Shown here piece after piece: positions 1 to 25,046 of a DNA stretch of 35,176 nucleotides. Every line of letters starts with the position of its first letter. The stretch's first letter is position 1. The notes under the pieces were generated by a model. The model was given only the letters and a program-made list of their open reading frames with translations. It made no database searches and was not told where the DNA came from. Origin of the DNA: a virus; IMG/VR virus record IMGVR_UViG_3300032241_001162, positions 1-35,176 of that record; one strand, written 5' to 3'. The translations under genes were made by a program, and so were the position numbers.

Positions 1-77
1 AATTTGTATGATGGCTTTGTATCCATTCCTATGTAAACTTTATCAATCGGTATGACAGTAATTTTATAGATAAACAT
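1..77 (-). CDS. GIY-YIG-like nuclease family protein, N-terminal fragment (runs off left edge)
   Basis: An open reading frame starts at ATG 77-75 and stays open to the window edge, giving 25 complete codons. The start is supported by a Shine-Dalgarno AGGA (88-85) seven bases upstream. The fragment shows F-I-Y at residues 2-4 and Y-I-G at 15-17, ten residues apart, with a lysine after the first motif. This is the layout of the first beta strands of GIY-YIG nuclease domains. The catalytic Arg and Glu of the family would lie beyond the edge and cannot be checked. Small GIY-YIG-like proteins occur in T4-type phages as homing or repair nucleases or as uncharacterised proteins. The gene follows gp55 on the same strand after 53 bases, and its ribosome binding site sits in a hairpin (see 78-125). 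Family call is tentative because so little is visible; that it is a real gene is more secure. Confidence 0.6.
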   Translation of the reverse strand, partial: MFIYKITVIPIDKVYIGMDTKPSYK

Positions 78-125
78 ATTTTAATCCTAAATGTATATAA
101 TTATTTATGCATTTTGGATTAAAAT
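78..125 (-). promoter_or_regulatory. Hairpin sequestering the ribosome binding site of the GIY-YIG-like gene
   Basis: Positions 78-87 and 116-125 form a perfect 10-bp inverted repeat. The stem continues inward with 89-93/110-114 (5 bp) and 95-97/106-108 (3 bp), with single mismatches at 88/115 and 94/109, and an 8-base loop at 98-105. In minus-strand RNA the AGGA ribosome binding site (88-85) lies mostly inside the stem (GGA pairs with UCC at 118-116), and the AUG (77-75) follows the stem directly. No run of U follows the stem in either direction, so a terminator is less likely. The pairing is seen directly; the regulatory role is inferred by analogy with T4 genes e, soc and 49. Confidence 0.65.
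102..109 (-). promoter_or_regulatory. Late promoter octamer (CATAAATA) inside the hairpin
   Basis: Read on the minus strand, 109 to 102 is CATAAATA, a NATAAATA form of the T4 late promoter TATAAATA. By analogy with T4, transcription would begin about six bases further on, near 96. The RNA would then contain only the 3' arm of the hairpin, leaving the AGGA at 88-85 free. The match is 7 of 8 to the T4 consensus; AT-rich sequence makes chance matches possible. Confidence 0.5.
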
Positions 126-130
126 CAATC

Positions 131-1039
131 TTACTCTGATTCTTCGGGTAAATCTTCGTCGTCGGTTTCCACGCTTTTTGGCATACGCATATTTTTGTAT
201 ATTTCTGCTTGTCTGGCGCTCTCTTCCGCAAATTCATGAAGATTTTGTCTAGTAGAACTAGGAGTGAGTCCTGCTCCTTCCAGAAGATCATCTCGAATAT
301 TCTGACTCTTCTTTTCTAAATTTAAAATACGGGTAAAAGAATTAGTTACGGCAGCAGTATAATAGGCAAATGGATTTTCACTTTTACTTTCGTCAAATTG
401 TAATCCAATTTGGCTTAACTGTAGAATGGCCTGTCCTTTCATCTCATCTACATATGTATATCCACGCCAGTTACTACGTTGTGCGTATCTCTCGCTGAGT
501 TTAATATACATTCTTCCTAAATTCTCAGTAATGCGTCCATGATCTTTACTGAATTTTCCAGTCTTAATACCACCCTTCCAATGACTTTTTCCCACGCAAA
601 TTAATTCGTCATTTTCATCGTATTTCCAATGTTGGAACGGAGGAAAATTTACTTTATCATGGCTATCTGCGCGAGTTTTGGTAGTTTTCTTACGACCTGG
701 TGCCAACGGAATATGATCAAATGTCATAATCCGTATGACAACATCGGTTTTGGCAATAGTTTTGTAATCGGGAATACAATCCGATAGTTTGATTTTTTTA
801 TCGCCGGCTAGTTTTGCAGCAGTAAATGTTTGTAACCCTATTCTTTTAGCTCGAGCACGTTTGGCTTCTGCAATGGTTCGAACATTAATCTTATCTAAAT
901 TCGTTAAGATTAAATCGTATTGATGATATTCTGGTTTACTAAAACTGGAAAACGAACATTTACTTTTATGAATCTCTGCTAACAAATCTCTATTATTAAG
1001 ATATTTTACTTTTCTTGTGGTAATTCCAATATTTGTCAT
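131..1039 (-). CDS. 55: Late-transcription RNA polymerase sigma factor, gp55 family
   Basis: This 302-residue protein is the phage sigma factor that directs host RNA polymerase to late promoters, acting with the sliding clamp in T4. The diagnostic part is at about residues 185-250: an Asn-Trp-Arg-Gly stretch, then a helix with Asp-Glu-Met, then Asn-Pro-Phe-Ala-Tyr followed by a Lys-rich helix. This matches the region 2-like core of T4 gp55. T4 gp55 is 185 residues; the roughly 180-residue N-terminal extension here is, as I recall, usual for gp55 of T4-like cyanophages. The C-terminus is strongly acidic (last 12 residues); in T4 the C-terminus contacts the clamp, so a similar role is possible. 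The start at 1039 has an upstream AGAGGA (1058-1053), a rather long 13 bases away, and a consensus sigma70 promoter behind it. NATAAATA octamers near several late genes in the window support the assignment. Confidence 0.9.
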   Translation of the reverse strand: MTNIGITTRKVKYLNNRDLLAEIHKSKCSFSSFSKPEYHQYDLILTNLDKINVRTIAEAKRARAKRIGLQTFTAAKLAGDKKIKLSDCIPDYKTIAKTDVVIRIMTFDHIPLAPGRKKTTKTRADSHDKVNFPPFQHWKYDENDELICVGKSHWKGGIKTGKFSKDHGRITENLGRMYIKLSERYAQRSNWRGYTYVDEMKGQAILQLSQIGLQFDESKSENPFAYYTAAVTNSFTRILNLEKKSQNIRDDLLEGAGLTPSSTRQNLHEFAEESARQAEIYKNMRMPKSVETDDEDLPEESE

Positions 1040-1065: not shown

Positions 1066-1093
1066 ATTATAACATATTAAAGTAATATGTCAA
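1066..1093 (-). promoter_or_regulatory. Consensus sigma70 promoter for gene 55
   Basis: On the minus strand TTGACA (1093-1088) is followed after 16 bases by TATAAT (1071-1066). Both hexamers match the bacterial consensus fully. Start of transcription would fall near 1059, just ahead of the AGAGGA ribosome binding site of gene 55. This points to early expression by host polymerase. Confidence 0.75.
1072..1090. promoter_or_regulatory. Operator-like dyad in the gene 55 promoter spacer
   Basis: ACATATTA (1072-1079) and TAATATGT (1083-1090) are perfect 8-bp inverted repeats separated by three bases. The dyad fills the spacer between the -10 and -35 hexamers and overlaps three bases of the -35. 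A dimeric repressor bound here would block the promoter. The symmetry is seen; the function is inferred, and the sequence is AT-rich. Confidence 0.4.
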
Positions 1094-7258: not shown

Positions 7259-7266
7259 GATAAATA
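7259..7266 (+). promoter_or_regulatory. Late promoter octamer (GATAAATA) before gp25
   Basis: GATAAATA matches the T4 late promoter at 7 of 8 positions and the relaxed NATAAATA form fully. It lies in the 18-base gap between the spike and gp25 genes, five bases before the ATG at 7272, so transcripts from it would have almost no leader. Confidence 0.55.
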
Positions 7267-7271
7267 TTATT

Positions 7272-7715
7272 ATGTCATTCAAATCAATAGAAATTACAAA
7301 CCCTTCCGCATTAAAAACATCACCTGCTACCGGCGGGCATTTATATGCAGGATTTAGTACTGTTGACAGTGCAAACCCTGGGTCTAAATTGTACGATATC
7401 GCATTAATACGTCAGGATCTTATTAATCGATTTAATACTAGAAAAGGCAGCAGGGTAATGAATCCGACATTTGGTACTTCTTTATGGGATTATCTAATGG
7501 AACCTATGTCAGAAAATATAACAACAGCGTTGCAAACGGAAATAACTGCTGTTTGTACATCAGATCCTAGAATAAACCCTACTAAAATAAATCTTACAGA
7601 GTATACTGATGGCTATTTGCTAGAACTAACAGTAAACATTGTAGGAACAAATCAAGCCGCTAATATAATTTTGTCGTTTGATCAAAATCTTGGTTTAGTC
7701 AGTGCGGTCCAATAA
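7272..7715 (+). CDS. 25: Baseplate wedge protein gp25
   Basis: A 147-residue protein of the gp25 family, the wedge component that touches the sheath and starts sheath assembly (the family is shared with type VI secretion TssE). The key segment is residues about 45-80: Leu-Tyr-Asp-Ile, Arg-Gln-Asp-Leu-Ile-Asn, Thr-Arg-Lys-Gly-Ser-Arg-Val-Met-Asn-Pro and Phe-Gly-Thr-Ser-Leu-Trp-Asp, which is the family signature. The C-terminus ends with a beta hairpin as in T4 gp25 (132 residues). No Shine-Dalgarno is visible; the late octamer is only five bases upstream. Position between spike and gp6 agrees with the T4-type order. Confidence 0.92.
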   Translation: MSFKSIEITNPSALKTSPATGGHLYAGFSTVDSANPGSKLYDIALIRQDLINRFNTRKGSRVMNPTFGTSLWDYLMEPMSENITTALQTEITAVCTSDPRINPTKINLTEYTDGYLLELTVNIVGTNQAANIILSFDQNLGLVSAVQ

Positions 7716-11248: not shown

Positions 11249-14200
11249 ATGGCAACAAATTTTATTCAATCAGTTCAGTTATTACCTGAATTTTTGCAGA
11301 CTAGCAAGAATACAAAATTCCTTGCTAGCACTATTGATCAGTTAATTCAAAAACCCGATTTGGAAAGATTAGATGGTTATGTGGGTTCTACTAATACTCC
11401 TACATATACTACTAGCGATGTATATATTTCGGAAATTTCCAATTTAAGATCGAATTATCAATTGACACCTGCATTAATTTTACAGGATAATTTTAATAAC
11501 GTTAAGCAAGCCGTTGCAATAGATGATTTAATAAATGAAATTAATCTTTATAATGGTAACACAAGTAATCTTGATAGATTATTTAGATCTGATGTATATT
11601 CGTATGATCCCCATATTGATTGGGACAAATTTGTAAATTATCGAGATTATTACTGGTTAGTTACTGGTCCTACAACAATACAGTTGAATAATGTAGGAGA
11701 TGTCGGTAATATTATAGGACAACAGACATATACCATTAATGGAATAACATTATCGAATGGTATGAAAATAACATTTGATGAAACAGTTGATCCACTTTTC
11801 CAAAATAAAGAATTCTTTGTCGAAGGAGTAGGAGATCACATTTATTTAATAGATTATTCTTTCCTATCAGGGCAAGAAAAAGTAGATATAGAAAATCAAA
11901 TAACCTTCGATGAAACCCCGTTCGACGAATATCCGTTCGACGGTTTTGTAAATTTACCTACCACTCCAGAATATATAACAATTAATCGTGGTAGTCCAGA
12001 TTTAAATCCATGGACAAGAAATAATCGATGGGTGCATCGAGATGTAATCGCTGCCTCTGCTGCCGCTTCAAATCAAGTTCCAGTATATCCTGCGCATTTA
12101 AATGCAAAAAGACCTATTATAGAATTTGAAGCAGGATTGAAACTTTATAATTTTGGTGCCTACGGAATTCCTAATGTTGATTTTATTGATACTTCTATAA
12201 CCGATGTATTCGCTACTATTTCCGGATCGACTTCTACTGTTGTTATTGACGGAGTTGCTATAACACCGGGATCTGCCCAAGGAAATAGAGTAATATTCCT
12301 TGCCGATTCTAATCCTGCAGTAGTAGGAGTAATTTTTGAAATCAAATATGTAACTATAGCTGGACAATTAAGATTAACATTAACAGAGATTGATAAACAA
12401 GGACACCCTGGGTTCGAGCAAGCATATCAAACCGGCGGGGTAGGTCAAACCCTGGGTGAACTCGGCGGAGCAGTAACCGCAGTTAACAAAGGAAATAATA
12501 AAGGAACCAGTTGGTGGTTTGATGGAAGTACTTGGAACTACGCTCAACAATATACCACAATTAATCAAGCTCCACTATTTGATTTATTTGATGAATATAA
12601 TATTAGCTATGGAGATAAAAACTATTATTCCAGCGACTTTAAAGGAAATAAAATATTTGGTTATGCAATAGGAACAGGCACACCTGATCCTGTTTTAGGA
12701 TTTCCTTTAAAATTTCGAAATAATTTAGATCTAGTAGCCACTTACCTTTTTGAGAATTATTTTGCAAATGGAACCATCACCATTATCGAAGGGGAAACTA
12801 CGAGAACTATTTCTACAGGAATAACAAATTTTTTTATCTATAGCCTTTTCGAGAACCTTTTTCCTTATCTGAATAAAGTATGGACAAAGGGTGCTACTTA
12901 TAAAATTCCAAAAATAAATTCAAATGGCTCCACTTATTACGATCTTCCATTAGGTCTTACTAATAATCCGTTAAATGGACCAATCGAAACTTTTACATTA
13001 AGTGATCTCACAGATCATTTTAATACAATGGTTGTTAATTCACAACAAACCGGTAGTTTGGGTATAAGAGATTTACCTAGAAAGTCTTATGTTTCCTATG
13101 GTACTAGATTAATATCAAATGCTAATCCGCTTCCATATGCTCAGTTGTTTATCGGGACAAAAGAAAATAGTGTAATTGATGCATTAACTAAAGCAGCGGA
13201 TCAGTATAATCAATTTAAATTAGGATTTTTGAAAAAGATAACAGATATAAACATTCAAAATAATCCTGTATTGGCAGTTGATACTGCATTAACAGAGATT
13301 AATGCCAATAAAACATCTTCTTCTGCTTATTATTTGTCAGACATGGTTCCTTACGGAACAGATTATATTTCTAGAACATGGACAGTTGCTAATGATAGTA
13401 ATACAGATTACCCATTAACATCACCATATGATCCTACTCAGTTAAATCGTTCGGTATTAGTTTATGTAAACGGAACGCAATTAATTTATGGACAAGATTA
13501 TAATTTTTCTACAAATAATGAAACTGTTCACTTTTTAATTAAATTAAATCTTAGAGATGTAATTGTCATTAACGATTACACAAATACAGAAGGAAACTAT
13601 GTTCCACCAACTCCTACTAAATTAGGGTTATATCCACAGTTTACTCCTAAGATTTATATAGATAATACATACATTTCTCCTACACAGGTAATACAAGGAC
13701 ACGACGGTAGTATTACGGTAGCTTACGGTGATTATCGAGATGAAATAATATTAGAATTTGAAACAAGAATTTATAATAATATTAAGACTTTCTATAGATC
13801 TAGTGTATTAGATGTCAATTGTTCTTCGCCCGGAGCATTTAGAACCACACTTAATGATTATTCTGTCGAAGAAATTAATTCTATAATACAACAAGATTTT
13901 ATTAAATGGTCGAATCAATACGGAATTAATTATTCTGATAACACAATTTTTGATTTAGGGAATCCATTTACTTGGAATTATACCGGAGGTTATAGTAATA
14001 GTACTGACACATTTCTAAATGGGTCTTGGAGATCAGTTTACAAATATTTCTTTGATACAGATCGACCACACACTAATCCTTGGGAAATGCTAGGGTTTAG
14101 TGAAGAACCCGTCTGGTGGGTATCTCAATACGGTACTGCTCCATATACCTCTGAAAATACTGCACTATGGACTGATTTGCAAAATGGTCAAATACAACAA

Positions 14201-17200
14201 GGTGATCTTGCAGGTATTAATGTTTATTATGCAAGACCTGGATTATTAAATTTAATTCCTGTAGATAATTTAGGAAATTTAATTAGTCCTAAAGATCTCT
14301 TTTCAAATAATAATGTTACTGAATTAACCAATAATCGATCATGGAAGTTTGGTGATCAAGGACCCGCAGAAACTGCATGGCGTAGAAGTAGCTACTGGCC
14401 ATTTGTTGTTCAAAAATTATTAGCATTAACAAGACCAGCTTCATATGCTGCATTAATGTATGATCCTTTCAATATTAATCCTGTTAATCAATTTATTGCT
14501 GGAAATTTAGTAACTTACGGTGTCAATGAAGAATTTTTAAAATTATCGTCCATGCCAGTGCATGGTGTAAGTAATAACCCAAATAGTGGTTATAGTGTTT
14601 ATGTTAGCGAAATCGGCCAACAAAGAACAATAAATTATAATCAAGAATTACAAAATGATTTAACAAATCTCGACATAAAACTTTTTTACAAAGTTGGAGG
14701 ATTTGTTAATAATAAGGAACTTCAAGTTGTTATCGACGCAATAGATCCTGCTAGTTCTAGCCCGGGTTCTGTTTTACAACCGGAAGATTATTCTCTTATT
14801 TTAAATGTTAGTAATCCTATAAAATCCACTGCAATCTCTGGAATTATTGTACAAAAAAATAATGGAAAATTTTTAGTTAAAGGTTATGATACATTAAACC
14901 CTTATTTTAATGTCTATAATTGCATAAGAAATCCCGATACTACTGCAATCACTATAGGAGGCATTTCTGAATCTTTCTTAATATGGTCTTCCAGTTCAAC
15001 GGAAGTCGACTCTGGATTGTCGACTGATCAAACCACGACAGCTAATTCTGCTATCTATGGAACTTTTTATCAAAAAGGTCAAATTGTTTCTTATAATAAT
15101 CAATATTATGTTGTACAAATAAGTCATAGAAGTGGAACTACTTTTGATCCTTCATATTTTCAACGTATACCTTCTCTACCAATTGTAGGAGGCAGCACAG
15201 TACAAACTGCAAGCGGTTTTGATAAATCTTCGACTTTACAAATACCATATGGTACAGAATTTAGTACTATACAACAAGTTTATGACATGATAATCGGTTA
15301 CGGTGCATGGTTGGAAGATCAAGGATTTTCATTTACAGAATACAATTCCGATCTACAATCTATCCTTAATTGGGATTATACATCGAAAGAATTTTTATAT
15401 TGGACCACACAAAATTGGGCCGATCAAAGCGTTATCGCTTTAAGTCCATTTGCAAATCAGTTAAATTTCCAACTACCAAATTCTGTAGTTGATAATATTT
15501 TTGATAGTTTTTATGAATACAGTTTATTGCAGGCTACGGGAGAATTATTTCCTCAAGAGCAACTATCTGTTACTAGAACTAATGGGCTATGTACAATTCA
15601 AACTTTAAATGCAGTTAACGGTATATATTTTGCAAGATTGAATTCTGTTCAAAAAGAACACGCAATGGTCTTTAATAATTTCACATTGTTTAACGATACC
15701 ATTTATGATATCGAAACAGGATTTAGACAGGAAAGAATGAAACTAATCGGGTTCCGTACTGCTAACTGGAATGGAGATTATTTTAGTCCTGGATTTGTCT
15801 ACGACCAAGCAATTATAAAAAATTGGAAACAATTTACAGATTATAAAGCAGGCGATGTAGTTTATTATTCTAGTAATTATTATTCTGCTATTAACAATAT
15901 TAATGGATCGGCTACCTTTATTTTCTCTCAATGGGTATTATTAGGTAATAAACCAGTTGCCGGATTATTGCCAAACTTCGATTATAAAATCAGTCAGTTC
16001 GACGATTTTTATAGTTTAAATATCGATAATTTTGACTCTTCGATACAACAGGCCGCACAAAATTTAATAGGATATACTCCTCGTCCTTATTTGAATAATA
16101 TTTTTAGCGATCCTACCGCACAATATAAATTTTATCAAGGATTTATTAGAGAGAAAGGAACACAAAACGCAGTTACAAAACTAGCCCGTGCTAGCTTGAA
16201 TACAATTAACAGTAGAATAGATTATAAGGAAGAATGGGCATTCCGTGTAGGTTATTATGGTTCTTATTCTTCGCATGATGAAATTGAAACAGCATTAAAT
16301 GAAGGATCATTTGTTAATAATCCACAAATTATTAGTTTTGTTGATTCTCTTCCTACTCCTGCTTCTGATTTAATATCATTTGTTTTACCTTCTGAGCTGA
16401 AAATTGCTCCTCGTAATTATCGACCTAATTCTACGTTTGTTACTACCTCAACTAGTGATATATTCCAATTAGATGTTGCCGGATATGTAAGATTTGATGA
16501 TATAGATTTAACATCTTTTAAACAGGCTGATATTTTAAATCTTACTAGTACTAATATTATAAAAAGAGGAACCACAATATGGTTAGCTAATACTGATAAT
16601 AAAGATTGGAATGTATTACGATACAATGTATTACCTGCCGGTCTTGTTAGTATGACAGTAGATCCTGTAATAAATGACCGATTTAATTTTGTAACAAATA
16701 TTAATCACGGGTTATCGGTAGGACAAATAATATCTATTGTTGAATTTGACCTTACTATGGACGGAGTTTATCAAGTTAATTCTGTCGACGGGCTAAACCA
16801 ATTTAGTATTATTAGTACATCTACTACCGCAATATCTAATATTAAGCCTAAAAGTTTAGGTTTAATTTTTACATTTGATAGTACTAGATACAATACTTTT
16901 GATAACTTACCGTCAGATGATAAGTTAATAACATTAAAGAGAAATTCTAAAGTTTGGGTTGATGACTCTGGTTATGGAAATTGGGCCGTATACCAAAAGA
17001 TAAAAAATTATAATAATAATAGAATAGCACAGAAAACAGTACCTATCAATCAACAATTAGGGTGGAGCATTAGTAAGAAAAGAAAATTTAATATTTTCTT
17101 AGTAGGAGCTCCGGGATATAAAGATTTTCGAAATTCGGGTAATGTTTATGTTTATGCAGAAGATAATAATTATGTTCCATTTAGATTTAACTATGGAATT

Positions 17201-20200
17201 AATTATAATTCTTCAGAAACATATTATACTTTAGGATCTCCAACAGGATTTGGTCAAAGTGTGATATATGATGATACTTATAGTACATCGTCATACGGTT
17301 TAATGTTTGTCGGAGCTCCGTTAACTAGTAATGTTAAATGGACTAATTCAGGAACAGTAAACACCGCGACTATTTTCTACACTCCTTCTTCTAATATACA
17401 GGAAGGATTAGTGAAGATCAGTGGTATAAATCCTCGAGTAATCAACGAAGATACACAATTAGTATTAGCAAGTCCTAATCCTTCTAGCTATGAACAATTT
17501 GGTTATAGTTTATACGAAGCAGGATTTCTAGACGGAAGATTATTATTAGTAGGCGCACCGCAAGTAAACAAATCAGGTACGGGTAATGTATATTCTTATT
17601 GGTTATCTACTGCTACTACAGATATCTTAGATAATATTTCTTATGTCGGTCAAATCACAACCTCGTCGATTACTACATTAGGAAGTTTATGGGGTAATAC
17701 TATTGGCGGCTCTGACAATGCTGAGTATATAGCAATTGGTGCTCCTGGTTATTATACTGGTACTGGTTTAGTTTCGGTATTTCAAGGAACTTCCACCAAT
17801 TATTTTCAAACTATATACAGCCCGTTCGATAAAAACGGAAATTTTGGACAATCTATTTCCTTTAATTCTTCCGGTACTTACTTGTTTATTTCTGCTCCTA
17901 ATACTAAAGCCGGTAGATCTTACGGTAAAGTAGCTGTTTATAATAATGAATCAGGAATTTATACATTAACTCAAATTATTTCTAATCCTATAGTAGGTGT
18001 AGGCATGAATTTCGGCCAAGCTATCGGAGTTAATGCGGATGCTACAGAACTAGTAATTACTGCCATAGGCACCAATGTTTACATCAAGGTAACATTGGAT
18101 GTATATACAAAGAAATTAGCCGACGGCAAGGCATTGTTTAATTCTACATATGTAAATGATTCTAACAGTGATCCTACTATTGAATCTACAACATTTGACT
18201 TAGATTCAACAAACTTTTTTGATAAAATTATATACTCCGGGGCTGCATATGTATATAACAGAAAAAATCAATTATTCAAATTAGCAGAAGAATTAGCACC
18301 TATCGACACCAATACTGGAACTAATTTTGGTTATAGTATTGCTGTTAACGAAAATTCTATATATGTAGGAGCTCCTGCTTATAAAAATAAAATATCTCCA
18401 GATCCAGCTATTAGTTCTATTACAAGATATTATAAAATTAATGATACTGCCGATAGCTGGAATCTATTAAGATCACAACCAAATTTAGTACAGACAGATA
18501 CTATACAAAAAGTAACACTCTTCGATACACAGAATGATGATGTATTAGAATATTTGGATGTAATTGATCCATTAAAAGGTAAGATTTCAGGAATAGCTGA
18601 TCAAGAATTAAAATATAAAACTTCGTTCGATCCGGCAATATATTCTATCGGTATAGATTCTACAGTTAATAATCTTGATAGTAATTGGCAATCATCTCAT
18701 GTAGGAGAATTGTGGTGGGATCTAAGTACTGCAAAATATACATGGTATGAACAGGGAGAATTAGAATATAGAAGAAACTATTGGGGCGCATTATTTCCTG
18801 GATCTAGTATCGACATTTATGAATGGGTAGAAACTACTTTATTACCTAGCCAGTGGGCAGCTCAAGCTGATACAGTTGCAGGAATTTCTTCAGGAATTAG
18901 TGGACAACCTAAATACCCTGATAATAGTGTTCTTTCTGTAAGACAGGTATATAATAATATTAGCGGACAATTTACAAATTATTATTATTATTGGGTTAAG
19001 AATTCTATTATAGTACCCAATGTTTCTAATAGAAGAATTTCTTGTAATGAAGTAATACAGATTATTTCTGATCCTAGAAATTATGGATTAAAATATATTG
19101 ACATTCTTTCTAGTAATGCCGTTGCAATAGCCAACGTAGGAAATTTATTAATTAATGATTCCATCGACCTAAATATTTCTTATGACATTATTAATAATTC
19201 TATTCCAAGACATACAGAATGGTTATTATTACAGGAAAATGATGAAAACAGTGTTCCTAATTCATTACTACAGAAAAAATTATTTGATAGCTTGTTAGGG
19301 CATGATAGTTTAAGTAATTCTGTTCCTGATCCTAGCCTATCTGAAAGACAAGCGTATGGCATACAAATTCGCCCAAGACAGTCGATGTTTAAAGACCGTA
19401 TTTCGGCGTTACGCAATGTTATAGAATTTACTAATAGTGTATTAATAAATCAGCGTATTGTTGGTAGTTATAGTTTTGAAAATTTAAATAAACAAGAACC
19501 AATACCACCAATATCAAATAATGAATATGATCGTATTGTAGAAGATAATGACGCATTATCCTTAATAGATACTTCGGGATTTGTAACAGCAGTATTCACT
19601 TGTACATTAACTACAAGCACCGGTCAAATAGAAAGCATTAGTATTGTAAATCCTGGAGCAGGATATACTATCACACCTACAGTATTAGTGAAAAACGATA
19701 CGTCCGGATGCGAGATTGGGGTACAAATTAATGCATCGGGATCAATCACCGGTACCAATATAATTAATGCAGGATCGGGTTTTACAACACCACCGACTTT
19801 AATTGTTCGTCCTTATACAGTTATTGTTCAATCGGATAGCACATCTAACGGTAAATGGTCTAAGTATATCTATAATAATGGCCAATCTCCTACATGGATT
19901 AAAGATCATACCCAATTATATAATACTCCATTATATTGGAATTATGTAGATTGGATTAGTCCTAACTATAACAAGTATATTGATTACAAATATACAGTTA
20001 AAAATATATATGATCTTGGCAGCTTACCAGAGCTATCCACTGGAACATATATAAAGGTTAGTAATGCCGGCGCCGGTTCTTATGCTATTATAGAAAAAAC
20101 AGCAGCGGGAGTGCTCGGTAATTTTAACGAAAAATTTGACGTAGTATATTCTCAAAATGGTACTATACAAATTTCAGATAATATATGGGATATACCGAAT

Positions 20201-23200
20201 AATAATTACGGATTTGATTATAAAAACACATGGGATCAAACCCTGTACGATCAAATACCTGATGTAGAATTACAATATATTTTAACAGCAATTAGAGATG
20301 ATTTATTCATCAATGATTTAAAAATAAATTGGAATTTATTCTTCTTTACAGCAGTCAAGTATGCTATATCTGAGCAAAAACAATTAGATTGGGCATTCAA
20401 GACTTCATTTATAAATGCAATCAATTATTCAGGATCATTAGGACAACCGCCTGTATATAAATTGTCAAACAGTGACAATTTCAAAGAATATTTGTTAGAG
20501 GTTAAGCCATATCATACACAAATTAGAAACTTTATAACTGATTATACTTCATTAGATAATTCGTATTCATATATTACAGATTTTGATTTACCTTCCTATT
20601 ATGATACTTCTTTAGGAAGACTTAATACTGTAGAATTAGGTAATCCATTGTTGAATCAATCACCTTGGAAAGATTGGGCAAATAATTATACATATCAGGT
20701 AGGAAGTATTGCTGTTGCAAATTCTGGAGCAGGATATACTTCAGCACCGTCTGTAGTAATAACTCCCGCTCCGGGAGATACTGGATTAGGGGCTGCTGCG
20801 ATTGCTTATATATCTTTAGGCAAAGTATATCTCATTCAAGTTACAAATTCTGGGTCGGGCTATATATTAACACCAACAGTTACCTTAACCGGCGGCGGAG
20901 CTGTTACAACTGCTACAGCATATCCGTATTTGGTAAACAATACTGTTAGATCTCCGGCTATTACAATGAAATTTGATAGAATTAGTAAAGAGCCTACAAT
21001 AATAACTCTTCCGGCTTTTGATAGTTTTATTGCCGACGGAAAGAATTCGGAGTTTGTCTTATCTTGGGTAGCAGCAGCTGACAAATCGACTATCAAGGTT
21101 AATTACGGCGGAATTCAAGCATTACCATTAGATTTTACAATAGTTTATTACAACTCTTATTATAATGGTTATAAAAAGAATTATAGTAAGTTAGTATTTT
21201 TAAATTATACACCGGCAGCTAATACTCGTATAACAATTTCTTACAAAAAGAATATAAACTTATTAAATGCTTATGATAGAATAACAAATAATTATTCTCC
21301 AACAGCAGGCATGCCAGGTACTGGATCTAATTATGCACAATTAATGTCAGGGATAGAATATCCCGGCACTAACGTAATTAGTCCTCCGTTCTTATTCAAT
21401 CCAAATGATCCTAACTTAATCGATAGTCAATATATAGGCGGAACATGGAATACTACTAGTACGTATTCAAATCCTTCGACTTATGGAGTAATTAATTCTG
21501 CAGATTTTGTTCAAGATCCTGTTACTGGACTATATATGATAGGGGGTACAACAGCTACGCTCGGCGGGACTATTTTAGACGGTGATAGATTTATTACTCC
21601 TTACACTGGGCATGCTCCTGAAGAATTACTGCCAGGTGAGGTTAATGAAAGTTTAGGAATAAATGTATATACTAAGAGTGCTGCAGGTTCGCCGTTAGTA
21701 CTATCTTCTTCCTTTGATATATTTGCTAGTACCACTGCTACTTCAGTAAGAAAGATGAGTATAGTTCCTCCTAACTATGCCAGCGTATTAGTATCCTTTA
21801 ATGATACAATTTTTCAATATAGCACAACAACTAATTTTGTTAATAACAATAGTTTTTCTATAAATTGGGCAACTAATGAGATGATTATACCACCCCAGCC
21901 CATTAATGGAAAATTATCTTATACAATTGTTAGCGAAGGAGGTTTGGAATCTGAGAATCAGACTGGATTTATTGATAAGAATACGGTAGTTACTACCTCG
22001 ACGATGGCTTCTGTGAGAGGAATAAGCGGAGGAAATACTGTAAATTCCGCGTATGTTTCAGTTAATGGACAAACAATTAATGCAATTTCTAACACCGCAA
22101 CTCAGTATGGTTATGTATTAAATAGCGGAACAGTTCATGTATATAATTTGCCAGCAGGTAATAATGCTATTACAGCATGGTTCTTTGGAACTAGCTACCA
22201 ATATTTTAATGAAATTAATGAGCAAATTATTCCGGTAACTACTTACCAAAGAAATCCAACATATACGGAGTATGTATTACCATTAATTAACCCGCCTGGC
22301 AATATTAAACCAGAGGTTGCTAATGCATTGGTTGAATTTAATGATGGTTACGGAATACATTTATTAGTTCCTCCGCATATCGATTATTACGAAGTAAATT
22401 CTTATAATATTAATCAAAGAATTTTTGCTATCAATAATACTAAACCTGGAAATACAACATCGACATTCAATTTGAATAATATTAGAGTTTATATTAACGG
22501 GGAAGAATTAAATCCAGGGTTTGATTTTACAGTAACATCTAATCCTTCTTTTGATATTAATCCTAATTATGTAACTATTAACGCTGGGTTGTTATCCATT
22601 GGTTCGGCAATAGCAATTTTAAGTAAACCAGGTGGTGCGGGCGGACCTCTTAATGCATATAATGCTTATCAACAGAATTATGAATATGACATTATAGGAG
22701 ATCAATTGAGATTGTGTGTTCCGCCTCAATCTTATATATTTGGTTGGGATCCTAATCGTGTTGGAGAAATTAGAGTCATTACATATACAGATCATGATGA
22801 CTTATTAATGAGAACAGAAACTTTCTACGGAAATAGTGCAGGCCGATTCCAAATATCTAGACCAGTATTGGATTTAAATTATATATGGGTCTTTGTTAAT
22901 GGAGTAGCTTTAGTGAATTTTGTTGATTTTGCAGTACTCGATGATCGTGTTACTGTAAAAATATCTAGTTCATATAGTTTAACACCAACAGATAATATTG
23001 AAATTATTACTTTTAATAGTAATGATACTCCATCAAGCATAGTAGGATACAGAATTTTCAATGATTTGTTTAATCGAACACAATTCAATCGACTAAGTCG
23101 TGCCAATTCGACCTATCTGTCTCAGCCTTTATATTCTACTAGTACAGTTATTAATGTTAATGATGCCAGAGTATTATCCCCTCCATCTGTAGAAAATAAT

Positions 23201-24364
23201 TCTCCTGGTGTAATTATGATTTCTGGAGAACGTATCGAATTCTTCACCATCGATTATAATAATAATATTTTAGGTCAATTGAGAAGAAATACGTTAGGAA
23301 CAGGTGCGAAAACAATTAATGAAATAGGAACCACAGTTTTTGATCAAAGCTCGTTACAAACAATTCCTTATAAAGAGCAATATTTGTATCAAAATACATT
23401 AACAAACTTTCATAATAATGTTTATACGATATCTACGGTTTCTTCGATAATTCAATACTCTTCGAACCTCAACACTTTTGTTAATGACGGTATTACTCTA
23501 TCAACCTCTACAAATAAAAACGGTTCTGAGAAAGGAAGAGCCGCTACAGCCGTAGATCAAATAATGGTTTATTATGGTGGCCGATTGTTGAATAAGTATG
23601 GATCCTATTATCAAGATACTGATTTATCATTCGATCCACCAATTATAAATTATAGTACTGCTACTACTTTTGCTAATTCATCAACCGGACTTATACAAGT
23701 ACCGTTTGTACAAGATTTACCAATTACGAATAAAATCGGAGATGCATGTATTGTTTTAAATATAGGTGCAGAGATTTCTGCTGCCACTACTAATTTTAAT
23801 GTATTACCGGCTGGTTCAACTGCAATTCCGGTATATGGGTTAGGGTGGGTAGGTTTGATTAATACAGGAAATTATGTAACTTGCGTAATTGATCAAATTG
23901 GCGGATTTATATCAGCTATACCTGACGGTACTACAATAATTGATTTCTCTTCAATCGGAGCTAACGTTAATCAAATAATTTTAAGTACGGCTACTACTGT
24001 CGATTTACCAATCGAAGGAGCAATTGTATCTGTTTATGAAGATACTCCATATAAGCAAGTATGGGTATATGAAAATTCCACATCCGTTGACGCTGTTAAT
24101 GGATATGTATATCGAGGAATAAACTATCAACCTCCCGAATTTACAATTGATGTTTCCACACAAGAACTTACTCTTAACCTTGTAGAGGGCGTAAAAGAAG
24201 GAGTTAAATTAACTGTAGTTCAACGACAGATTACAACTGCAACATCTTGGTCTTGGAATACTGGAGCATTGTCTCTAGTAGATAGCAACACACCGCAAGC
24301 AAATTTCTTAAAAATTAGCCCGGTAGATTTGCCTACTGATTATTATTATGGCGGAACGCCCTAA
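11249..24364 (+). CDS. Giant tail/baseplate structural protein, 4371 residues, with internal beta-propeller
   Basis: One uninterrupted 13.1-kb frame, over a third of the window. It follows gp6, where T4 has gp7 (1032 residues), so it may combine the gp7 wedge role with receptor-contact or fibre parts; that is inference. Residues 1-140 hold a helical segment with Leu-Pro-Glu-Phe-Leu-Gln and a Trp-rich motif (Asp-Trp-Asp-Lys-Phe-Val-Asn-Tyr-Arg-Asp-Tyr-Tyr-Trp). Near 935-960 is an Arg-Pro-His-Thr-x-Pro-Trp-Glu-Met-Leu-Gly-Phe block. Residues about 1943-2385 show seven Gly-Ala-Pro-type repeats like FG-GAP beta-propeller blades. Near 2510-2535 is an Ile-Tyr-Glu-Trp-Val-Glu segment; Lys-Pro-Tyr-His near 3086; paired Gly-x-Gly-Tyr repeats at 2801-2850 and 3158-3210. 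The last 1000 residues contain repeated Val-Asn-Gly beta-sandwich-like modules. Composition is rich in Asn, Tyr, Ser, Thr and Ile. GGAAG before the ATG supports the start. I believe similar giants occur in related aquatic phages. Confidence 0.75.
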   Translation: MATNFIQSVQLLPEFLQTSKNTKFLASTIDQLIQKPDLERLDGYVGSTNTPTYTTSDVYISEISNLRSNYQLTPALILQDNFNNVKQAVAIDDLINEINLYNGNTSNLDRLFRSDVYSYDPHIDWDKFVNYRDYYWLVTGPTTIQLNNVGDVGNIIGQQTYTINGITLSNGMKITFDETVDPLFQNKEFFVEGVGDHIYLIDYSFLSGQEKVDIENQITFDETPFDEYPFDGFVNLPTTPEYITINRGSPDLNPWTRNNRWVHRDVIAASAAASNQVPVYPAHLNAKRPIIEFEAGLKLYNFGAYGIPNVDFIDTSITDVFATISGSTSTVVIDGVAITPGSAQGNRVIFLADSNPAVVGVIFEIKYVTIAGQLRLTLTEIDKQGHPGFEQAYQTGGVGQTLGELGGAVTAVNKGNNKGTSWWFDGSTWNYAQQYTTINQAPLFDLFDEYNISYGDKNYYSSDFKGNKIFGYAIGTGTPDPVLGFPLKFRNNLDLVATYLFENYFANGTITIIEGETTRTISTGITNFFIYSLFENLFPYLNKVWTKGATYKIPKINSNGSTYYDLPLGLTNNPLNGPIETFTLSDLTDHFNTMVVNSQQTGSLGIRDLPRKSYVSYGTRLISNANPLPYAQLFIGTKENSVIDALTKAADQYNQFKLGFLKKITDINIQNNPVLAVDTALTEINANKTSSSAYYLSDMVPYGTDYISRTWTVANDSNTDYPLTSPYDPTQLNRSVLVYVNGTQLIYGQDYNFSTNNETVHFLIKLNLRDVIVINDYTNTEGNYVPPTPTKLGLYPQFTPKIYIDNTYISPTQVIQGHDGSITVAYGDYRDEIILEFETRIYNNIKTFYRSSVLDVNCSSPGAFRTTLNDYSVEEINSIIQQDFIKWSNQYGINYSDNTIFDLGNPFTWNYTGGYSNSTDTFLNGSWRSVYKYFFDTDRPHTNPWEMLGFSEEPVWWVSQYGTAPYTSENTALWTDLQNGQIQQGDLAGINVYYARPGLLNLIPVDNLGNLISPKDLFSNNNVTELTNNRSWKFGDQGPAETAWRRSSYWPFVVQKLLALTRPASYAALMYDPFNINPVNQFIAGNLVTYGVNEEFLKLSSMPVHGVSNNPNSGYSVYVSEIGQQRTINYNQELQNDLTNLDIKLFYKVGGFVNNKELQVVIDAIDPASSSPGSVLQPEDYSLILNVSNPIKSTAISGIIVQKNNGKFLVKGYDTLNPYFNVYNCIRNPDTTAITIGGISESFLIWSSSSTEVDSGLSTDQTTTANSAIYGTFYQKGQIVSYNNQYYVVQISHRSGTTFDPSYFQRIPSLPIVGGSTVQTASGFDKSSTLQIPYGTEFSTIQQVYDMIIGYGAWLEDQGFSFTEYNSDLQSILNWDYTSKEFLYWTTQNWADQSVIALSPFANQLNFQLPNSVVDNIFDSFYEYSLLQATGELFPQEQLSVTRTNGLCTIQTLNAVNGIYFARLNSVQKEHAMVFNNFTLFNDTIYDIETGFRQERMKLIGFRTANWNGDYFSPGFVYDQAIIKNWKQFTDYKAGDVVYYSSNYYSAINNINGSATFIFSQWVLLGNKPVAGLLPNFDYKISQFDDFYSLNIDNFDSSIQQAAQNLIGYTPRPYLNNIFSDPTAQYKFYQGFIREKGTQNAVTKLARASLNTINSRIDYKEEWAFRVGYYGSYSSHDEIETALNEGSFVNNPQIISFVDSLPTPASDLISFVLPSELKIAPRNYRPNSTFVTTSTSDIFQLDVAGYVRFDDIDLTSFKQADILNLTSTNIIKRGTTIWLANTDNKDWNVLRYNVLPAGLVSMTVDPVINDRFNFVTNINHGLSVGQIISIVEFDLTMDGVYQVNSVDGLNQFSIISTSTTAISNIKPKSLGLIFTFDSTRYNTFDNLPSDDKLITLKRNSKVWVDDSGYGNWAVYQKIKNYNNNRIAQKTVPINQQLGWSISKKRKFNIFLVGAPGYKDFRNSGNVYVYAEDNNYVPFRFNYGINYNSSETYYTLGSPTGFGQSVIYDDTYSTSSYGLMFVGAPLTSNVKWTNSGTVNTATIFYTPSSNIQEGLVKISGINPRVINEDTQLVLASPNPSSYEQFGYSLYEAGFLDGRLLLVGAPQVNKSGTGNVYSYWLSTATTDILDNISYVGQITTSSITTLGSLWGNTIGGSDNAEYIAIGAPGYYTGTGLVSVFQGTSTNYFQTIYSPFDKNGNFGQSISFNSSGTYLFISAPNTKAGRSYGKVAVYNNESGIYTLTQIISNPIVGVGMNFGQAIGVNADATELVITAIGTNVYIKVTLDVYTKKLADGKALFNSTYVNDSNSDPTIESTTFDLDSTNFFDKIIYSGAAYVYNRKNQLFKLAEELAPIDTNTGTNFGYSIAVNENSIYVGAPAYKNKISPDPAISSITRYYKINDTADSWNLLRSQPNLVQTDTIQKVTLFDTQNDDVLEYLDVIDPLKGKISGIADQELKYKTSFDPAIYSIGIDSTVNNLDSNWQSSHVGELWWDLSTAKYTWYEQGELEYRRNYWGALFPGSSIDIYEWVETTLLPSQWAAQADTVAGISSGISGQPKYPDNSVLSVRQVYNNISGQFTNYYYYWVKNSIIVPNVSNRRISCNEVIQIISDPRNYGLKYIDILSSNAVAIANVGNLLINDSIDLNISYDIINNSIPRHTEWLLLQENDENSVPNSLLQKKLFDSLLGHDSLSNSVPDPSLSERQAYGIQIRPRQSMFKDRISALRNVIEFTNSVLINQRIVGSYSFENLNKQEPIPPISNNEYDRIVEDNDALSLIDTSGFVTAVFTCTLTTSTGQIESISIVNPGAGYTITPTVLVKNDTSGCEIGVQINASGSITGTNIINAGSGFTTPPTLIVRPYTVIVQSDSTSNGKWSKYIYNNGQSPTWIKDHTQLYNTPLYWNYVDWISPNYNKYIDYKYTVKNIYDLGSLPELSTGTYIKVSNAGAGSYAIIEKTAAGVLGNFNEKFDVVYSQNGTIQISDNIWDIPNNNYGFDYKNTWDQTLYDQIPDVELQYILTAIRDDLFINDLKINWNLFFFTAVKYAISEQKQLDWAFKTSFINAINYSGSLGQPPVYKLSNSDNFKEYLLEVKPYHTQIRNFITDYTSLDNSYSYITDFDLPSYYDTSLGRLNTVELGNPLLNQSPWKDWANNYTYQVGSIAVANSGAGYTSAPSVVITPAPGDTGLGAAAIAYISLGKVYLIQVTNSGSGYILTPTVTLTGGGAVTTATAYPYLVNNTVRSPAITMKFDRISKEPTIITLPAFDSFIADGKNSEFVLSWVAAADKSTIKVNYGGIQALPLDFTIVYYNSYYNGYKKNYSKLVFLNYTPAANTRITISYKKNINLLNAYDRITNNYSPTAGMPGTGSNYAQLMSGIEYPGTNVISPPFLFNPNDPNLIDSQYIGGTWNTTSTYSNPSTYGVINSADFVQDPVTGLYMIGGTTATLGGTILDGDRFITPYTGHAPEELLPGEVNESLGINVYTKSAAGSPLVLSSSFDIFASTTATSVRKMSIVPPNYASVLVSFNDTIFQYSTTTNFVNNNSFSINWATNEMIIPPQPINGKLSYTIVSEGGLESENQTGFIDKNTVVTTSTMASVRGISGGNTVNSAYVSVNGQTINAISNTATQYGYVLNSGTVHVYNLPAGNNAITAWFFGTSYQYFNEINEQIIPVTTYQRNPTYTEYVLPLINPPGNIKPEVANALVEFNDGYGIHLLVPPHIDYYEVNSYNINQRIFAINNTKPGNTTSTFNLNNIRVYINGEELNPGFDFTVTSNPSFDINPNYVTINAGLLSIGSAIAILSKPGGAGGPLNAYNAYQQNYEYDIIGDQLRLCVPPQSYIFGWDPNRVGEIRVITYTDHDDLLMRTETFYGNSAGRFQISRPVLDLNYIWVFVNGVALVNFVDFAVLDDRVTVKISSSYSLTPTDNIEIITFNSNDTPSSIVGYRIFNDLFNRTQFNRLSRANSTYLSQPLYSTSTVINVNDARVLSPPSVENNSPGVIMISGERIEFFTIDYNNNILGQLRRNTLGTGAKTINEIGTTVFDQSSLQTIPYKEQYLYQNTLTNFHNNVYTISTVSSIIQYSSNLNTFVNDGITLSTSTNKNGSEKGRAATAVDQIMVYYGGRLLNKYGSYYQDTDLSFDPPIINYSTATTFANSSTGLIQVPFVQDLPITNKIGDACIVLNIGAEISAATTNFNVLPAGSTAIPVYGLGWVGLINTGNYVTCVIDQIGGFISAIPDGTTIIDFSSIGANVNQIILSTATTVDLPIEGAIVSVYEDTPYKQVWVYENSTSVDAVNGYVYRGINYQPPEFTIDVSTQELTLNLVEGVKEGVKLTVVQRQITTATSWSWNTGALSLVDSNTPQANFLKISPVDLPTDYYYGGTP
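17076..18390 (+). repeat. Seven FG-GAP-like beta-propeller blades within the giant protein
   Basis: The encoded segment (about residues 1943-2380) repeats a unit of roughly 45-95 residues: Phe-Gly-x-Ser/Ala-Ile, then a short strand, then Val-Gly-Ala-Pro or a variant (Ile-Gly-Ala-Pro, Ile-Ser-Ala-Pro, Ile-Thr-Ala-Ile-Gly), then Gly-x-Val-x-Val-Tyr/Phe. Seven units can be counted, the sixth being degenerate and carrying an insertion. This is the pattern of integrin-alpha-type FG-GAP propellers. The calcium-binding Asp-x-Asp-x-Asp-Gly loops typical of many such blades are not evident. Confidence 0.65.
19649..20890 (+). repeat. Two pairs of Gly-x-Gly-Tyr/Phe repeats in the giant protein
   Basis: Four copies of Asn-x-Gly-Ala/Ser-Gly-Tyr/Phe-x-x-x-Pro-x-Val/Leu occur at residues 2801, 2840, 3158 and 3200. 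They come in two pairs with 39 and 42 residues between members, each pair followed by a short beta-rich segment. Similar short modules are found in phage tail proteins and bacterial surface proteins. About 310 residues of different sequence separate the pairs. Confidence 0.6.
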
Positions 24365-24372
24365 TCGGCTAG

Positions 24373-24380
24373 TATAAATA
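24373..24380 (+). promoter_or_regulatory. Late promoter octamer (TATAAATA) before the 219-residue gene
   Basis: A perfect copy of the T4 late promoter TATAAATA in the 22-base gap after the giant gene. By eye it is one of only two perfect copies in the window, both just upstream of gene starts. Transcription would begin at about 24386, one base before the ATG. Confidence 0.7.
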
Positions 24381-24386
24381 TATTTT

Positions 24387-25046
24387 ATGGAACAGTCTAA
24401 AACTATGAACAACCCAACACAAATACAAGAAAAAGAGGAAAATTCTCGCCCAAACGAGCAAGGATCTGTTAAAATTCAGGGCCATATTAAGATTTTTGAT
24501 CCGCAAACTAAAGAAGTATTTGTAGACAAGCGTAATGCTATACATTATGAAAATTTTTCATTAGCTTTAGCACAGAGTTTAAGTAATCAAGGGTACGGAA
24601 CTATTTCTCAGATGGCGTTCGGTAATGGCGGTACATTAGTCGATGATACAGGTATTATTACATATTTGACTCCTAATACCATTGGTCCTACTGCTTCTTT
24701 ATATAACGAGACTTATAGTAAAGTAGTTGATCCTACATTACCTAGCGATTTAGATCCTGCTAGAAATTTTATGCAAGTACGACATATTTTAGGAGCAACT
24801 TACAGTGATGTTTTAGTTAGCTGTTTATTAGATTTTGGTGAGCCATCGGGACAAGCAGCATTTGACAATGCTACTACTCCTAATGGTGACTATATTTTTG
24901 ATGAATTAGGATTAAAAAGTTATACATCGACTGGGGATAGTTTATTATTAACTCATGTAATATTCCACCCGGTACAAAAATCATTGAACAGAATGATACA
25001 GATTGATTATACTGTGAGAATACAAAGCCTCACCGGCGGCCTATAA
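24387..25046 (+). CDS. Putative tail/baseplate structural protein (unrecognised family)
   Basis: I do not recognise this 219-residue protein with certainty. The first 25 residues are hydrophilic (Gln/Glu/Asn rich); after that comes a beta-rich domain opening with a Lys-Ile-Gln-Gly-His-Ile-Lys-Ile-Phe-Asp stretch, then Arg-Asn-Ala-Ile-His-Tyr-Glu-Asn-Phe and a Met-Ala-Phe-Gly-Asn-Gly-Gly-Thr turn near residue 75. It lies between the giant structural protein and two fibre-like proteins, so a baseplate or fibre-attachment role is likely by context only. No Shine-Dalgarno is seen for ATG 24387; an in-frame ATG at 24405 is an alternative that would leave a 19-base leader from the late promoter and a weak GGAA upstream. 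Confidence 0.6.
   Translation: MEQSKTMNNPTQIQEKEENSRPNEQGSVKIQGHIKIFDPQTKEVFVDKRNAIHYENFSLALAQSLSNQGYGTISQMAFGNGGTLVDDTGIITYLTPNTIGPTASLYNETYSKVVDPTLPSDLDPARNFMQVRHILGATYSDVLVSCLLDFGEPSGQAAFDNATTPNGDYIFDELGLKSYTSTGDSLLLTHVIFHPVQKSLNRMIQIDYTVRIQSLTGGL

Follow-up and report, generated by a model that had tools for sequence, protein, structure and literature searches.

A hairpin leader that appears to hold a GIY-YIG homing endonuclease untranslated until late infection in giant T4-like phages

Just behind a gene for the late sigma factor gp55, a stretch of viral DNA (IMG/VR record IMGVR_UViG_3300032241_001162, positions 1 to 35,176; the whole 35,176 nucleotides are called the window here) carries a 48-base palindrome that includes both a late-promoter octamer and the ribosome binding site of the next gene, which raises the question of what this gene is and what such a leader does for it. 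Comparisons of sequence indicate that in giant T4-like phages the stretch before this gene, which codes for a homing endonuclease, appears to hold the enzyme untranslated early and to start it late. Taken as a whole, we consider it likely that the leader unites an early RNA lock, a late promoter and a probable operator of a homing endonuclease that targets gp47. The features concerned lie in the window as follows.

1..77, minus strand: GIY-YIG homing-endonuclease gene, first 25 codons; the contig ends at base 1, and full homologues have about 254 aa
78..125, minus strand: RNA hairpin in the endonuclease leader, 18 pairs with two mismatches and an 8-nt loop
85..88, minus strand: Shine-Dalgarno (SD) sequence AGGA in the 3' arm, 7 nt from the ATG
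102..109, minus strand: octamer of the late promoter, CATAAATA, shared by 5' arm and loop; 41 of 45 leaders have its exact core
110..128, plus strand: CATTTTGGATTAAAATCAA, an exact 19-nt copy of gp47 codons (H-F-G-L-K-S region), identical to the empty-site relative L061
78..97, minus strand: TATACATTTAGGATTAAAAT, a second, inverted target-like copy that forms the 3' arm, found by arm-profile comparison
131..1039, minus strand: gene 55 homologue (late sigma factor), the host gene upstream of the insertion, from profile matches and annotated homologues
1066..1093, minus strand: sigma-70 promoter of gene 55, TTGACA-16-TATAAT, a 12/12 match

The window itself contains only 25 codons of the endonuclease gene and no gp47. 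Three relatives of its gene 55 have a gene of about 254 amino acids before gp47, whose N-terminus resembles that in the window (MFIYKIT...YIG), and a search with this family recovered 79 loci; nearly all the close homologues (L082 to L149) are flanked by homologues of gp55 and gp47, and in two of them the contig stops before or within gp47. The family matches PHROG homing-endonuclease profiles (2.8e-12), its best sequence match in the PDB is the I-TevI catalytic domain (4.6e-5), and the predicted fold (pLDDT 88) agrees best with the I-TevI domain 1ln0 (TM 0.85 on the target). Y4, Y15-x-G17, R28, H32, E75 and N90 are invariant in 20 homologues, and the Pfam GIY-YIG match is below the family cut-off. 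The initial annotation had described the gene as GIY-YIG-like, and judged by these profile, sequence and fold matches the gene after the hairpin is a member of the GIY-YIG homing-endonuclease family with the I-TevI fold. No full-length member was found among annotated phages, where the best matches span less than 60% of the protein, and no literature was found on the combination of GIY-YIG, a late promoter and gene 55.

Upstream, the gene at 131-1039 matches the late-sigma profiles PHROG 12791 (E 5e-83) and PHROG 234 (4e-24), and its promoter at 1093-1066, called strong in the initial annotation, is the 12/12 match listed above; this promoter is the presumed source of the read-through RNA. In viral contigs, relatives of gene 55 are mostly followed by a gp47/SbcD-like gene, and in PA5oct an SbcD-like gene comes directly after gene 55.

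Read on the minus strand from 125 to 78, the hairpin consists of ATTTTAATCC-A-AAATG-C-ATA, the loop AATAATTA and TAT-A-CATTT-A-GGATTAAAAT, giving a stem of 10, 5 and 3 pairs with two 1x1 mismatches. The AGGA (88-85) lies inside the 3' arm and the ATG (77-75) immediately 3' of the stem, as the initial annotation had it; the coordinates that it gave for hairpin, octamer, AGGA and ATG agree with ours to the base. The ribosome binding site is predicted to be sequestered by this hairpin in read-through RNA. Its energy is -15.6 kcal/mol (z = -3.2 against dinucleotide shuffles), and an Rfam search of the window returned no family. In such AT-rich DNA, where 1 of 200 shuffles folds equally well, a palindrome could arise by chance, and it is the conservation and covariation over 45 leaders, presented below, that refute this reading and reduce its probability to practically nothing. 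The stem was also tried as a candidate terminator and rejected, being AT-rich, without a U run and absent from the window's terminator-like sites.

The late octamer claimed for positions 109-102 was found there as CATAAATA, and the spacing known from T4 leads to a predicted start of the late transcript at about 96. ATAAATA occurs 7 times on the two strands of the window, against 33.7 occurrences expected from shuffles, and all 7 directly precede a gene that is read from the same strand, in a window of which called ORFs cover ~98%; the genes behind them include baseplate genes. Scarcity elsewhere together with placement before genes would be the trace expected of a functioning late promoter. 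As in T4-type late transcription, TATAAATA-like octamers are found upstream of late genes and gp55 is encoded by the phage, and NATAAATA has been reported as the late promoter of cyanophage S-PM2 (PMC2984593). A further octamer, AATAAATA, is located at 1111-1118 on the minus strand, upstream of gene 55 and just ahead of its sigma-70 promoter, and given this site gene 55 itself may also be transcribed late.

The alignment across relatives that the initial annotation had proposed was made with 45 distinct leaders of endonuclease homologues (44 distinct rows once aligned), to which the 19-column stem of the window was applied and compared with 500 shuffles and with slid-partner controls. The stem covaries. 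Its cells are paired in 84.7% of cases across leaders, a value that 0 of 500 shuffles reach and that falls to 46% or less in the slid-partner controls; both sides are altered in 12 of the 19 stem pairs, double-change cells number 77 compared with 32.5 in shuffles, and all five covariation measures are attained by 0-1 of 500 shuffles. The column pair 18/48, which adjoins the SD, occurs as five standard pair types. Where the octamer core is exact it lies at -35 to -30, always within the 5' arm, the SD is in the 3' arm in every leader, and the start codon always marks the end of the repeat. Such covariation across some 45 divergent leaders suggests that the lock is a lasting feature of these elements. 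G-U pairs (30) are not in excess over A-C mismatches (50), as sense-RNA wobble would have it, so covariation alone identifies neither the selected strand nor RNA as opposed to DNA.

Over all viral contigs, the exact pattern of octamer and 3' arm was found in 25 stretches, every one of them upstream of this endonuclease, indicating that the leader travels with the gene; the octamer core was present in 0 of 73 empty gp55-gp47 junctions. These counts bear on the proposal that the hairpin is a transcription terminator or an RNA-processing site after gene 55. It does lie only 6 nt past the gene 55 stop codon, but it accompanies the endonuclease and is missing from the empty junctions, which makes such a role very improbable. 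In four leaders (L025, L064, L083 and L101) a sigma-70-like promoter stands directly before the hairpin, as at empty gp55-gp47 junctions; early RNA from this promoter would start at the foot of the stem and carry most or all of the stem.

What the fold would mean for translation was estimated from the energy needed to open the start region from -14 to +3. The median cost was 14.5 kcal/mol in read-through RNA with both arms versus 3.3 kcal/mol in the predicted late RNA, the early cost exceeded the late one in all 45 leaders, and gp47 starts of 72 empty loci, taken as a control, cost 5.1 kcal/mol. With the spacing of T4, late transcripts over the leader set would begin between -22 and -17 relative to the ATG, where the 3' arm has its foot. 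The mean unpaired probability of the SD gave little contrast (0.25 in early and 0.32 in late RNA), and it is the opening energy alone that separates the two RNAs. In structure, the arrangement is that of a hairpin-gated late endonuclease, with the start region in a hairpin that only upstream RNA can form and a predicted late RNA that lacks the 5' arm. The view that read-through RNA folds whereas late RNA is open was upheld by these computed costs and by the covariation, and we regard an early/late switch at the endonuclease leader as well supported on comparative grounds.

The distribution of the gene is that of a mobile element. A gp55 tree of 243 loci calls for at least 24 changes between presence and absence of the endonuclease, and 9 changes were counted on a smaller gp55 tree. 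Compared with the empty relative L002, whose gp55 is 96% identical, the window loses its similarity abruptly at the stop codon of gene 55. With L175 it has 123 nt in common without a difference, from inside the base of the hairpin to the end that both contigs share, beside gene 55 DNA of only 66-85% identity per 100 nt, a combination that points to recent transfer. These two contigs come from different metagenomes and stop at the identical base within the endonuclease gene (window base 1, L175 8036), which probably marks a branch in the assembly where strains continue differently. At L051 (2040-2782), the gp55-gp47 site is occupied by a different GIY-YIG gene with its own unrelated hairpin, which contains AATAAATA and a sequestered GAGGG; the design probably arose independently here, and the L051-type protein was found in only one further contig.

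A candidate target for the enzyme was found in the leader itself. On the minus strand, CATTTTGGATTAAAATCAA is the 5' arm of the hairpin and adjoins the octamer. When a profile of 16 leader 3' arms was run over both strands of 240 gp55-sampled loci (1.37 Mb), 88 matches of at least 15 bits were obtained, 78 at the D-x-H-x-G codons of gp47, 10 in leaders and 0 elsewhere. The longest exact match between an arm and gp47 is 20 nt, from the arm of L084 (TATACATTTTGGACTAAAAT) to the gp47 of L067. DIHFG is encoded in 161 of 193 empty loci versus 10 of 50 occupied ones, frequencies that are not population estimates as carriers were found mostly through the endonuclease search; other motifs in carriers are DVHFG, DLHVG, DLHIG, DLHFG, DLHLG, DIHLG, DIHYG and DIHWG. 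A pair test that is independent of these frequencies used 13 phylogenetically independent pairs, in about 7.7 of which the motif was lost with the endonuclease, and never the reverse (median p 0.008). In phosphoesterases of the SbcD/Mre11 type, D-x-H constitutes metal-binding motif I. Recognition of active-site codons is common among homing endonucleases, according to the account in PMC2988022. We propose that the D-I-H-F-G codons of gp47 are the probable cutting site and that the altered codons of carriers are probable self-protection alleles. Patchy presence at one site, empty alleles and an altered target in carriers together form the pattern of a homing endonuclease.

At L047 (3909-4080) there is a remnant of the endonuclease gene, only the 3'-terminal ~165 nt together with the gp47 RBS, and the gp47 of this locus has the carrier-type motif DLHIG. 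The remnant includes TTGAAA-18-TATACT, which in complete endonuclease genes lies ~140 nt before gp47. By its position, this looks like a gp47 promoter nested within the endonuclease gene, an arrangement that PMC2988022 describes for T4.

The likeness to gp47 has to be accounted for, and a lock with a late promoter would explain the hairpin, the octamer and the SD without it. The gp47 likeness would then be a relic of the leader's origin to which no enzyme binds, and the poor target match of the divergent leaders L116, L117, L132 and L136 fits this. We think this account unlikely, though it deserves to be taken seriously, since gp47 likeness is kept in many leaders and the base before CAY follows the gp47 codon of the clade: in the L117 clade, where 33 of 46 empty gp47 genes have ATT, 9 of 12 leaders show T at this position, and outside that clade, where ATA is the prevailing gp47 codon, 26 of the 28 leaders scored show A. 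The leader, then, probably mimics the cutting site of the endonuclease as well, like the I-TevI operator, which overlies the late promoter and has 15/20 identity to the homing site (as given in PMC2988022). With hairpin arms that are inverted gp47 copies, the enzyme probably binds across the late promoter in its leader and keeps its own production in check. Self-repression as in I-TevI is probable here on the strength of a target-like operator that overlaps the late promoter; the resemblance is one of sequence, and binding is what we infer from it.

Could the palindrome be an operator and nothing else? Two inverted sites for the endonuclease or another protein around the late promoter would leave the RNA hairpin as a by-product without translational control, which agrees with the resemblance of both arms to the gp47 target and with G-U pairs that do not outnumber A-C mismatches. 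Against this, columns 18/48 change jointly, often to A, giving AGG(A/G) and departing from the gp47 codon while the 5' arm follows, and the repeat invariably covers the SD and stops at the start codon, so that we rate an operator alone as rather improbable. The DNA operator role and the RNA role are compatible and do not exclude each other.

Joining the lock to the operator, we propose that the 48-base hairpin serves as leader to a GIY-YIG homing endonuclease whose free-standing gene has been inserted with gene 55 on one side and a gp47-like gene for a recombination nuclease on the other. Early read-through RNA from gene 55 would contain both arms, fold and hide the ribosome binding site, a pairing that the comparison reveals and a translational block that would follow from it. 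After synthesis of gp55, RNA polymerase carrying it would initiate ~13 nt downstream of the octamer's first base, and the late RNA, without the 5' arm, would expose the AGGA and allow the endonuclease to be translated. The enzyme would then cut the gp47 of element-free co-infecting phages at or near the D-I-H-F-G codons, and repair of the cut gp47 would copy the element into the recipient, two steps that we infer from where the element and the altered gp47 codons occur; the carrier would be spared by its altered codons. More tentatively, with a chance that we put slightly short of even, a single palindrome does three jobs: its target copies flank the late promoter, as DNA it is an operator for autorepression, and as read-through RNA it is a translational lock, in an element placed directly behind the late-sigma gene that unlocks it and aimed at codons for the active site of gp47, which as a recombination nuclease may serve the very repair needed for homing.

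The logic of the lock is already known. The initial annotation had cited the T4 genes e, soc and 49 as precedents, and the same logic does hold for them, but the closest precedents are the homing endonucleases I-TevI, segB and mobE; the gp47 target copy in the hairpin arms had not been part of that annotation. In e, soc and 49 the start region is likewise concealed in early RNA, and late transcripts of e escape the hairpin from promoters within its 5' side, as outlined in PMC3014915; unlike the present gene, these are ordinary non-mobile phage genes without target mimicry. The design of hairpin and late promoter is given for I-TevI, I-TevII, I-TevIII, segB and mobE in PMC2988022, where early and middle RNA of I-TevI has its ribosome binding site concealed by the hairpin and the 5' side of the hairpin is missing from the late-promoter transcript. 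I-TevI, from the td intron of T4, thus shares with the window's element the GIY-YIG class, the hidden ribosome binding site, the late promoter and the target-like operator, besides being its best PDB match in sequence and fold. It differs in being intron-borne, whereas the element described here stands free, flanked by gene 55 and a gp47-like gene, and has target-like sequence in both arms, another DNA-binding part and a probable target in gp47. T4 segB and mobE of Aeromonas phage Aeh1 are free-standing and have the same layout of hairpin and promoter, yet they occupy other insertion sites, mobE is an HNH enzyme, and the passages on them in PMC2988022 and PMC3014915 mention no two-arm target copy.

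The early/late lock on homing endonucleases has so far been described for a handful of T4-type phages, and comparison now places it in uncultured phages with contigs of up to about 330 kb, in some 45 divergent leaders. The copy of gp47 in the leader and the loss of the codons in carriers allowed a probable cutting site and probable self-protection alleles to be proposed from sequence alone, and the arrangement suggests that an operator and an RNA lock can be one palindrome.

Distant homologues at L157, L159 and L160 lie by a sliding-clamp gene, with the clamp loader further downstream, and have near-perfect hairpins around ATAAATA; no target copy for this group was found in 80 related clamp loci, and the matches were in other leaders only. 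Elsewhere in the window, a single ORF of 4371 codons (11249-24364) follows a baseplate-wedge gene in the structural gene cluster. At three octamer sites (7259-7272, 24373-24387 and 29439-29418) the predicted late start precedes the annotated ATG by 0-8 nt, an interval that has no SD, and the late mRNAs of the phage may be leaderless or nearly so at these sites, unless translation begins further in.
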